From: Candidatus Roizmanbacteria bacterium | GTDB taxonomy: Bacteria > Patescibacteriota > Microgenomatia > UBA1406 > GWC2-37-13 | DNA: 49,224 bases | Assembly (NCBI GenBank): GCA_016181725.1 | Contig: JACOYT010000020.1 | Span: 1 to 49,224, forward strand | Direction: 5' to 3' | In this document: positions 10,072-31,797 of the stretch, one piece after another | Numbering within the stretch: the stretch's first letter is position 1 | Layout of the letters: every line of letters starts with the position of its first letter | The notes under the pieces: generated by a model | Databases searched by the model: none | Seen by the model: only the letters and a program-made list of their open reading frames with translations | What the model was told of the DNA's origin: nothing | Made by a program: the position numbers and the translations under genes

Positions 10072-10100
10072 TTGACCTGGTTGTGATCTTCATATATAAT
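10072..10100 (+). promoter_or_regulatory. Strong sigma70-like promoter upstream of rplC, TTGACC-17-TATAAT
   Basis: -35 10072-10077, -10 10095-10100, 17-bp spacer. Confidence 0.8.
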
Positions 10101-10109
10101 TTACTTCGC

Positions 10110-10145
10110 ATGACATTTTTCCTTGCGGGAAAAATCAGTGTTTAA
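10110..10145 (+). CDS. Putative 11-aa upstream ORF (MTFFLAGKISV) in rplC leader
   Basis: ATG 10 nt after -10 box, ends TAA; contains ATTTTTCC/GGAAAAAT hairpin. Confidence 0.35.
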   Translation: MTFFLAGKISV

Positions 10146-10171
10146 ATTTTGCCGGATTGGAAGTTATTCGG

Positions 10172-10200
10172 GAGCCCCAATCTGGGGCTTTTTTTATTTT
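10172..10200 (+). terminator. Terminator-like hairpin in rplC 5' leader (possible attenuator)
   Basis: AGCCCC-AATCT-GGGGCT followed by TTTTTTATTTT directly before ATG. Confidence 0.7.
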
Positions 10201-29011: not shown

Positions 29012-30112
29012 TCATTCGCTTTTTTCCTCCAGCATTGATTTCTCAACTGGAGAAAAAAAGAATACTAGAAGGGGGAGGAGTCCAGCAAAAAGGAGAGCAA
29101 AACCCAGAGATTTGTCGGATAGTATTCCAACAATTGGGTTTAAAAGAGCGATAGTAAATCTTCTAAACATTGATACGAAGACAATAGTTGTCATTCCTTG
29201 AAAAAATGAAACCATGATAAAGGCTATAGAAGTTATAAGGGCGCTGAAGCTCAAATAATTTCTCGCAGACCCAAATATTTTTTCAAGACCAATAAAATTT
29301 AATACTACTGCAATTTCTGAAGCAATCATTATCACATGAAATGATCCAAAGTAAAATATTGGAATTCCCAATTTCAAGAGGAGGGGCTGATAAAGCCATA
29401 TGACATAATAAGCCGCTGCAGATACTATAATGGCATCAAGAGCAATTAAACGCAACGTCTTATGTTGATAAAAAAACTTAAATCCCTTATTCACAATATC
29501 TATATAACGCTTGCTTTCAGAAGGTCCTTCGTGTACCTTCGGTTCTTTTATTGAAAGTGCGAGAATGGCTGCAATAAACATCGGAATTGCTGTAAATAAC
29601 ATTGGAAAATTTACATCAAAACTAGAAGCGATAAAGCTTCCTATAGGAGCGGATATAAGAAAACCAAGGAGAGTAAGTGAATGAGCCCTCCCAAATATTT
29701 TTTTACTTTCGTCTTCCCGGCCTGCTTCTTTTAGCGCGTCGTATAAAAGCGCATCATTTGCTCCAGATACCAGTGCAAACGAGAGCGCAAACAAAAACTC
29801 TCCCAAAAGAAAAATCTCGAACCTTGGGATACTTCCATATACGAGCGTCGCAAGAACCAAACATAAAGCTCCTAAAGTTAATGAAACTTTTCTTCCAAGA
29901 TAATCTGCAACTGCTCCTGTTGGGACTTCGAGTAGGAATATCCAGATAAGAAACCAAGATTGTAAAAGGAACATCTGTGTTTTTGTTATTCCTCCCCATT
30001 GAGTAAAAAAGGGCACAAGTACTGCCGAAAAAAAATGCAGGCTCCAGAAAAAGGTAAAGGCGTAGTAACGCCAAATTGTACTTTTGATTGTAGTTTTTAT
30101 ACTGTTAATCAT
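29012..30112 (-). CDS. Major facilitator superfamily transporter (possible drug efflux)
   Basis: 366 aa, ~12 TM; GAVADYLGRKVSLTLGALC MFS loop motif, second half fold. Confidence 0.85.
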   Translation of the reverse strand: MINSIKTTIKSTIWRYYAFTFFWSLHFFSAVLVPFFTQWGGITKTQMFLLQSWFLIWIFLLEVPTGAVADYLGRKVSLTLGALCLVLATLVYGSIPRFEIFLLGEFLFALSFALVSGANDALLYDALKEAGREDESKKIFGRAHSLTLLGFLISAPIGSFIASSFDVNFPMLFTAIPMFIAAILALSIKEPKVHEGPSESKRYIDIVNKGFKFFYQHKTLRLIALDAIIVSAAAYYVIWLYQPLLLKLGIPIFYFGSFHVIMIASEIAVVLNFIGLEKIFGSARNYLSFSALITSIAFIMVSFFQGMTTIVFVSMFRRFTIALLNPIVGILSDKSLGFALLFAGLLPLLVFFFSPVEKSMLEEKSE

Positions 30113-30124
30113 AGCGTTTTTATA

Positions 30125-30156
30125 AATAAAAAAACCAGCCGTTTTTTGACTGGTTT
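30125..30156 (-). terminator. Intrinsic-terminator-like hairpin immediately upstream of MFS start (attenuator segments 3:4)
   Basis: Minus strand AAACCAG-TCAAAAAACGG-CTGGTTT followed by T-run TTTTATTTATA. Confidence 0.8.
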
Positions 30157-30187
30157 CTAAATGAGAACTTGAACTCTTTTTAATAGA

Positions 30188-30268
30188 TTACGTTTCTGCT
30201 CCAAAGAAACCAGCGCAATAGTCCCCCGCATATGGTACGAGGTCTGCTGGTTTGACTCCGGTTGTCAT
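30188..30268 (-). CDS. Putative 26-aa leader peptide MTTGVKPADLVPYAGDYCAGFFGAET
   Basis: ATG 30268-30266 to TAA 30190-30188; lies between promoter and terminator and encodes attenuator segments 1 and 2. Confidence 0.65.
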   Translation of the reverse strand: MTTGVKPADLVPYAGDYCAGFFGAET

Positions 30269-30296
30269 GAAGCAGAAACTTATCATATAAGAATGG

Positions 30297-30325
30297 ATTA
30301 TACTGCAAACTTTATTGTTTATCAA
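30297..30325 (-). promoter_or_regulatory. sigma70-like promoter TTGATA-17-TATAAT for leader-MFS transcript
   Basis: -35 at 30325-30320, -10 at 30302-30297, 17-bp spacer. Confidence 0.75.
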
Positions 30326-30384: not shown

Positions 30385-31797
30385 TCAGTCGGATTGGCCG
30401 ACTAAAAAGACAGCTTGCCAGGGGCGGTACGAGGAGAAAAAGTTTTTTTCAAAAATTGTCCCGTCAGGCTTTGTTACTTTATAGTTAAAGTTTGACTTTC
30501 CCCCCCATGCCGCAAAATCAACCTGCTTCGTTGTCCCTTTTTTCAAAGTTGGGTCATCTTGATAGAGCGGATCCGGTGGGGGTTGCACATCGTAGAGCGT
30601 TGGAATTGAGATCTCTATATCTCTTCCATCCTTTTTCCCAAAGATACGAAATGCAAGATCTCCAGTTGCCGTATTATATTCTGTCTGAATGAGAATATGT
30701 CCTGGCGTATCGTTTTTTATCTTAAGGTCCACAGGAGGCGCATAGACCGTTGCGTCAAACCCCGGTTTTGAATCGTTTTCGTAGTAGCCCACCCGATACG
30801 CATGTGCGACGCGCTCTACAATTGGAAGGCCAGAGTTTAAAGCTGCCCGAAAGAGCGTTGTTGAAACCTGGCATACGCCCCCACCATCACCAAGAACTGT
30901 CTTTCCGCTTTTTATGATATAGGCAGGCTTGAATCCGGTTGATGAGGAGATATCGCCAACCGTTTCATTAAAGGAGAAGATACTTTTCGGTGGAACAAGA
31001 ACTCCATTGAATTTTGATGAGGCAAGGATGATGTTGTGGATACGCTCTGGTATCGAGCCTGCGAAGTTTGATCTTCCTTCGGCAATAAGTTCCTCTATTC
31101 CAAATTGGTTTGATTTGGCAAGCGTAATCTCTGGCAGTATGATTTCTTCTTCCAGACCCACCGCTTTCACCGAGGGTTTCTTTTTCCAGCTTTCTACAAT
31201 TTTTTCAATATCCGCGTGAAACTTATCTGATTTTATTTTTGCCCCTTTTTCCTCTTGACGAAAGCTCACTACCCTGTTGTTTTCAAACTGAAACAGGGCA
31301 TTTTTTGCCGGTTTGTTATATCGTTGTTCCTTGTCGGTAACAAATTCGTTTATAACCCTTTTATCGTATGAGATGGTCGTTGTAAAAGAGAACTTGTCGG
31401 TGTTAAAGAGCGTTGAAAACTTCTGATAGGCTCTTGATGGGAGATAGGATACCCGGCCAATAAGATACGCCCGATCTATCATGTCGACAACATTGCTTTT
31501 TACCCCAAGCGCCTTTGCAGAGAGAGTTGCTACTGCTTGATCCTTGTACAAGACGGTGATTGATGAACTTTGCAATTTTTTTTCTCTTTCCAAAAACATC
31601 TTAATCGCCTCACTTTTCGTTTTTCTTCCAACATGAACATTGTCGATATATACGTTTGGATAAATACGGATTTGAAGCTTTTGTTCTTCTTTCGTAATGT
31701 AGGAGGCGGTAAAAACTCCGGAAACAAGAAGCAGGGCTAAGATACCAAGGAGAATTTGAAAAAAGACAAGGTTCTTATTTAGCCGATTTGGTATCAT
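30385..31797 (-). CDS. VanW-domain protein with N-terminal membrane anchor and G5/PG-binding-like repeats
   Basis: FNGVLVPPKSIFSFNETVGDISSSTGFKPAYIIKSGKTVLGDGGGVCQVSTTLFRAALNSGLPIVERVAHAYRVGYYE; start set at MIPNRLNKNLVFFQ. Confidence 0.9.
   Translation of the reverse strand: MIPNRLNKNLVFFQILLGILALLLVSGVFTASYITKEEQKLQIRIYPNVYIDNVHVGRKTKSEAIKMFLEREKKLQSSSITVLYKDQAVATLSAKALGVKSNVVDMIDRAYLIGRVSYLPSRAYQKFSTLFNTDKFSFTTTISYDKRVINEFVTDKEQRYNKPAKNALFQFENNRVVSFRQEEKGAKIKSDKFHADIEKIVESWKKKPSVKAVGLEEEIILPEITLAKSNQFGIEELIAEGRSNFAGSIPERIHNIILASSKFNGVLVPPKSIFSFNETVGDISSSTGFKPAYIIKSGKTVLGDGGGVCQVSTTLFRAALNSGLPIVERVAHAYRVGYYENDSKPGFDATVYAPPVDLKIKNDTPGHILIQTEYNTATGDLAFRIFGKKDGRDIEISIPTLYDVQPPPDPLYQDDPTLKKGTTKQVDFAAWGGKSNFNYKVTKPDGTIFEKNFFSSYRPWQAVFLVGQSD

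Follow-up and report, generated by a model that had tools for sequence, protein, structure and literature searches.

In streptococci, the macrolide attenuators mefA and msrD have the leader peptides MefAL and MsrDL (PMC10314930, PMC4335068); on the hydrophobic chain of the latter, MYLIFM, the drug-bound ribosome stops (PMC10314930). In attenuators of the ermK type, a translated leader results in termination, and an antibiotic-stalled ribosome in formation of the antiterminator (reviewed in PMC5418344). A leaderless attenuator has been described in Sinorhizobium meliloti, where trpL encodes a leader peptide of 14 residues (PMC7298713).

Bacteria of the candidate phyla radiation (CPR) are mostly uncultured, and little is known of their gene regulation. 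Our literature search found no report of leader-peptide attenuation in Patescibacteria, nor of a riboswitch in Roizmanbacteria, and for CPR attenuators it turned up only a paper on the structure of the E. coli ribosome. We analysed a 49,224-nt stretch from the genome of an ultra-small, uncultured Candidatus Roizmanbacteria bacterium (hereafter the window; contig JACOYT010000020.1), for which a first-pass annotation had proposed a leader-peptide transcription attenuator, with terminator/antiterminator logic, in front of an MFS transporter gene. The layout was found in five genomes, and folding models make attenuation of transcription by a ribosome on a leaderless leader ORF a likely mechanism.

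Architecture of the leader

Direct reading of the minus strand placed the promoter, leader ORF, stems, terminator and MFS start at the coordinates of the first-pass annotation. The −35 box TTGATA (30320–30325) is separated by 17 nt from the −10 box TATAAT (30297–30302), and transcription is predicted to start at about 30290. The 26-codon ORF initially proposed (30268–30188) is present, but the start that recurs in relatives is an upstream, leaderless AUG. Here it corresponds to ATG 30286, six codons upstream of 30268, with the same stop and 16 bases downstream of the first T of TATAAT. It is very probably the true start, and would very probably coincide with the transcription start or be no more than ~4 nt away, which would make the ORF (near-)leaderless. 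The resulting 32-codon ORF (30188–30286) encodes MISFCFMTTGVKPADLVPYAGDYCAGFFGAET.

The stem P1, described earlier as an extra 9-bp stem closing the ORF, does exist, but by sequence it has 12 bp, including one G.U pair. Its 5′ arm GUUUCUGCUUCA (30268–30279) spans codons 3–6/7, which an early-stalled ribosome is predicted to cover, and its 3′ arm is UGGAGCAGAAAC (30192–30203); AUG 30286 is just outside. Segment 1, AAACCAGC (30246–30253), is predicted from sequence and folding to sequester segment 2, GCUGGUUUCU (30205–30214), the antiterminator 5′ strand according to both simulation and scan (see below). An apical hairpin, CCUCG...CGGGG, forms at codons 15–21 (30224–30242) in the folding, and the other leaders have a hairpin at the same place. 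Segment 3, AGAAACCAG (30150–30158), is at once the 3′ strand of the antiterminator and the 5′ arm of the intrinsic terminator, AGAAACCAGUC-AAAAAAC-GGCUGGUUU followed by seven T (30128–30158), in which segment 4 (30138–30132) adjoins the T-run. The MFS gene (29012–30112, ATG at 30112, 366 aa) was assigned to MFS_1 by Pfam.

Folding of the leader, the check suggested by the annotation, showed it to be more stable than shuffled sequences (z = −3.95). For the ORF alone, z was −4.5 and 0/300 shuffles were as stable. A stable three-way junction right after the start site and linked to a terminator might also be the aptamer of a metabolite riboswitch, the ORF then being there by chance. Against this, the leader matched none of the Rfam covariance models, and an ORF of 30–32 codons with an AUG near +1 recurs in 5/5 leaders. 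Moreover, orthologues keep the architecture of the junction and not its sequence, whereas aptamers retain their binding core. A riboswitch is therefore highly improbable.

Upstream on the same strand, a VanW-family gene ends at 30385, so that the terminator could in principle be that of VanW, accompanied by a chance ORF and a constitutive promoter, with no regulation at all. We find this very improbable. A separate inverted repeat, TGCCTCATTTATTT/AAATAATTGAGGCA (about 30376–30349), follows the VanW stop, the promoter sits between this repeat and the leader, and the orthologues keep the leader in varying upstream surroundings.

The specificity of the attenuator layout was estimated by a blind, rule-based scan for a −10 box, an ATG 11–17 bases on, an ORF of 8–50 codons, a terminator, a downstream ORF of 100 aa or more, and an antiterminator that has 7 bp or more and overlaps the terminator arm. 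In nearly the whole assembly, which has 94 terminator-like sites, only the window site was returned; omission of the antiterminator condition added three mini-ORFs. The same scan over 96 fetched loci gave six distinct loci, namely the five core leaders described below and one in genome G205.

Counterparts and simulated switching

The exact leader DNA had no match elsewhere in the sequences searched, low E-values being due to short AT-rich stretches. The order −10 box, predicted leaderless ORF of 30–32 codons, terminator and MFS start nevertheless recurs at MFS orthologues of four more genomes, of which two are Roizmanbacteria, one is Woesebacteria and one belongs to a further family. Three emerged from comparing the 400 bases upstream of the three best orthologues, in Roizmanbacteria RIFCSPLOWO2_02_FULL_40_13 (G022, 32 codons), Roizmanbacteria RIFOXYA2_FULL_38_14 (G007, 30 codons) and Woesebacteria Gw_Eff_bin_35 (G068, 31 codons). 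The fourth, G339, was added when 373 genomes of the class were searched, and has TTGACA-17-TATAAT, a 31-codon ORF and a terminator. The AUG is 12, 12, 12 and 13 nt from the first −10 base in G022, G007, G068 and G339, respectively, compared with 16 in the window, and in these four leaders the stop codon precedes the terminator arm by 22–31 nt. That AUG position and ORF length recur in five genomes is indirect evidence that the leader may be translated.

The leader peptides of G022 (MLFLYFNISERPMTLVTKGAHYAGFCRGEAKM), G007 (MFYLCITTLLRMDTLVENEAKHGGCGNSGR), G068 (MFTFGFNHCMPTIFLVADEKSCGGSVVVSRK) and G339 (MFWHFGITKNQYNLAVCGAIFAGLKQFEIII) have in common with that of the window their length, a hydrophobic/aromatic start, a central (L)V and little more. 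The motif PADLVxYAGDYCAGFFG, for which the annotation suggested a search, is not kept upstream of the MFS orthologues and was dropped as a signal; ORF length, N-terminus and (L)V are what recurs. As to conservation of the stems, they are rebuilt in the related loci, the antiterminators only in part, and the leader sequence is barely alignable. Antiterminator sequences differ, from GCUGGUUUCU/AGAAACCAG in the window to GGCUGUG.GUAAUA/UAUUAC.GCACAGCC in G007 and GGCUCGGUGGUU/AACCAACGAGCC in G068.

No such leader was seen at the Shapirobacteria locus (L064), at G023 or at most other MFS homologues, archaeal ones included. In the MFS tree the genes with a leader are not grouped in a single clade of their own, which indicates a patchy leader, either often lost or moved along with the gene. 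Three further loci were not retained as core members: G205 (L089), where modelling of a leaderless 34-codon ORF and an antiterminator gave no switch dependent on the ribosome; G342 (L093), which is truncated at the contig end and failed to switch in the model; and G370 (L088), whose antiterminator is weak.

The effect of a ribosome was simulated codon by codon, by masking the first P-site base together with 12 nt on its 5′ side and 15 nt on its 3′ side. Pairing of segments 2 and 3 was computed in RNA ending before the 3′ arm of the terminator, and both structures in the full RNA. Without a ribosome, the window leader gave 0.00 for the antiterminator and 0.99 for the terminator. With the P-site at codons 5–7, the antiterminator reached 0.96–0.98 and won in the full RNA as well, whereas at codons 11–31 it reached at most 0.18, with the terminator at 0.99.

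A block at codons 5–7 favoured the antiterminator in 5/5 leaders, strongly beyond shuffles in three. The terminator stayed when the ribosome was absent or past about codon 20, except that blocking the last codons of the ORF freed segment 2 again in some leaders. The range of antitermination was codons 2–5 for G339 in the full RNA (up to 8 in truncated RNA), 3–15 for G068, and 1 to about 13–15 for G007 and G022, the latter declining gradually until codon 19. ORF shuffles reached the switch score in 0/600 cases for the window (also 0/250 in a first shuffle set), 1/600 for G068, 1/600 for G339, 29/600 for G022 and 96/600 for G007. This single statistic is not equally fair to all leaders, the G007 antiterminator being mostly outside the terminator arm, with an outcome that varies with the definition of segment 3.

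Terminator and antiterminator are clearly mutually exclusive in the window, G068 and G339. In G022 the equilibrium favours the terminator, so that antitermination would have to be kinetic. In G007 exclusion is weak: the antiterminator competes for no more than the base of the terminator stem, and the full-length fold accommodates the two together. Switching is thus clear in three leaders, marginal in one, and seen in G007, where the score is not significant against shuffles, only with segment 3 defined differently; G007 is a weaker case.

The stall had been placed at PADLVPYAGDYCAGFF. In the simulation, blocks there (codons 13–28) led to termination and blocks at codons 5–9 to antitermination, so that a stall is rather expected at the hydrophobic/aromatic N-terminus. 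We thus propose that transcription from this promoter begins with the AUG of the 32-codon ORF or slightly upstream of it. With no ribosome, the ORF would fold into nested stems holding segment 2; with a ribosome running past about codon 20, segment 2 would be held in these stems or covered. In either case segment 3 would join the terminator, and RNA polymerase would stop before the MFS gene. A ribosome stalled at about codons 5–8 would instead cover the P1 5′ arm and release segment 2, which would pair with the emerging segment 3, preventing the terminator and letting the transporter be transcribed. Of the signals considered, the most likely is a compound in whose presence ribosomes making hydrophobic/aromatic peptides would slow down or halt within the first codons, in which case the putative exporter would be switched on when translation is inhibited.

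Nature of the signal and other leaders of the genome

Codons 2–6 contain at least two aromatic residues in 5/5 leaders versus 5.3% of 525 ORFs in the genome; U-rich early codons alone would raise the aromatic content. Such an N-terminus fits either sensing of Phe or aromatic tRNA, or, by analogy with MsrDL, a hydrophobic nascent chain stopping a drug-bound ribosome. In the former case, scarcity of charged Phe (or Tyr/Trp) tRNA would stall the ribosome at codons 2–6, and the transporter would import aromatic amino acids or peptides. Of the 25 codons at these positions in the five leaders, 10 are Phe and 13 aromatic, and hungry codons there would place the ribosome in or beside the simulated range. 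However, each leader has 2–3 aromatic codons with no run of one amino acid as in phe, trp and his leaders, and G007 has only F2 and Y3.

The same genome offers a point of comparison upstream of a DAHP synthase gene (L140, contig G000:C44, 2358–3164, minus strand), identified by NCBIfam PRK08673 (2e-74, short of the curated cut-off). Its leaderless ORF MKLVLQKFWFSYFYPARNGRSVM contains FWFSYFY, and 1:2, 2:3 and 3:4 stems can be drawn, with the terminator ACCCGCC/GGCGGGT and the antiterminator GGGCGG:CCGCCC. This leader was used as a positive control for the ribosome-block method, and simulated antitermination occurred with the P-site at codons 5–14, on the aromatic codons. A counterpart in G046 (L168), MKNKEFLIKQTSFYFYQLLYRREIF, contains FYFY. 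The modelled behaviour is that of a textbook leaderless aromatic amino-acid attenuator, for which the locus is a candidate, and the switch over aromatic codons is evidence for ribosome-mediated attenuation in the lineage. This leader, and the lack of a detectable prephenate dehydratase gene in the window's genome, which may make Phe import necessary, speak for an amino-acid signal at the MFS gene too.

Beside the DAHP synthase gene lies a gene for a YcaO/SagD-family component of a thiazole/oxazole-forming maturase (L140, 453–1775, minus strand; NCBIfam TIGR03604, above cut-off), hinting at a modified-peptide gene cluster in a CPR genome.

A further leader precedes rplC, encoding ribosomal protein L3 (at 10201). 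In the window (10073–10200, plus strand) it comprises TTGACC-17-TATAAT, a near-leaderless mini-ORF MTFFLAGKISV, then CCRGAUUGG and the terminator GCCCCAAUCUGGGGC with its T-run. The leader was found in 26/30 genomes of the order examined (L172–L200), with a −10 box and, 13–18 bases on, a short ORF mostly of 11 codons. The peptides often start with MLIILC or MLLFLV (for instance MLIILCSGTKD and MLLFLVRETGS). A CCRGAUUGG-like segment begins 5–15 bases past the stop and pairs with CCAAUCUGG of the terminator over 8–9 of 9 positions, with some compensatory changes; from the sequence, this pairing would be a candidate L3 antiterminator. Given the position of the segment, termination would often be the favoured outcome with a ribosome at the stop codon. 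The L3 leader matched no Rfam model, and ribosome-level feedback or r-protein binding are possible modes of action.

The L3 leaders start with a hydrophobic stretch (MLIILC) similar to that of the MFS leaders and have no tie to amino-acid supply. The nearest curated models of the MFS protein are drug pumps, namely TetA(P) and Tet(40) for tetracycline, HP1165, and LmrA for lincomycin, all far below cut-offs. For these two reasons we slightly favour a ribosome-stalling compound over Phe or aromatic-tRNA shortage, although we rate even the compound at somewhat under an even chance and the shortage as rather unlikely.

Any slow ribosome near the start could also give read-through with no stall motif, the leader then sensing directly the level of translation (free ribosomes or initiation capacity). 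The leaderless start, the leader of similar type before L3, and the preference for the antiterminator under blocks at codons 1–4 in truncated RNA of several leaders would all agree with this. In the window leader, however, blocks at codons 3–4 leave segment 2 unreleased (0.10), and we hold this reading, too, to be not very probable. These estimates are not exclusive of our confidence in the attenuator, since sensing of amino acids or of translation level would be alternative signals within it. More speculatively, and probably less likely still, leaderless mini-ORFs with a hydrophobic start and a terminator/antiterminator could be, in Roizmanbacteria and relatives, a general ribosome-stress sensor for the efflux pump and the L3 operon.

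An efflux role of the MFS protein is plausible from the models above. It shares about 27% identity with plasmid proteins annotated just as MFS transporter. Relative to three aligned orthologues, the window protein (29012–30112, minus strand) lacks about 35 aa in frame between TIVF and VSMFRRF; the gap may reflect a damaged copy, a strain variant or an assembly error. Relatives with 39–45% identity (L066–L076, L078) occur in Pacearchaeota, Nanoarchaeota, Aenigmatarchaeota, Bathyarchaeota and Lokiarchaeota bins and in Cloacimonadota, a distribution in DPANN, other archaeal bins and Cloacimonadota that suggests wide transfer.

Comparison with known attenuators

Ribosome-mediated transcription attenuation is a known kind of mechanism; new, within the literature searched, is its leaderless, MFS-linked form in a CPR group. 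A conserved leader-peptide attenuator would show that CPR bacteria sense translation through the ribosome, and would provide a testable sensor for a compound met by CPR cells. Leaderless leader ORFs would, moreover, be a regulatory style overlooked by Rfam and the usual annotation.

The proposed attenuator resembles mefA and msrD in its short leader ORF, its intrinsic terminator and the read-through caused by a stalled ribosome, and mefA also has a downstream MFS efflux gene. MsrDL (MYLIFM) is a short peptide whose hydrophobic character recalls the N-termini of the window-type leaders. In contrast to mefA and msrD, the window-type ORF is longer (30–32 codons), predicted to be leaderless, devoid of the +x+ arrest motif and found in a CPR host; and whereas MsrDL stalls at its own stop codon, the window-type stall is predicted at codons 5–8. 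The predicted termination/antiterminator logic is that of ermK, as far as the description in the review allows comparison (PMC5418344), but the downstream gene encodes a transporter here and a methylase in ermK. With S. meliloti trpL it would share a transcript beginning at the AUG of the leader ORF and a terminator/antiterminator switch; the Trp codons of trpL, however, sense an amino acid, and the gene controlled is biosynthetic. Finally, the proposed attenuator resembles Bacillus bmrB-bmrCD and vmlR, in which a ribosome-dependent terminator precedes the gene for a resistance transporter or factor (PMC5418344, PMC9226507), but leader type, protein families and hosts all differ.
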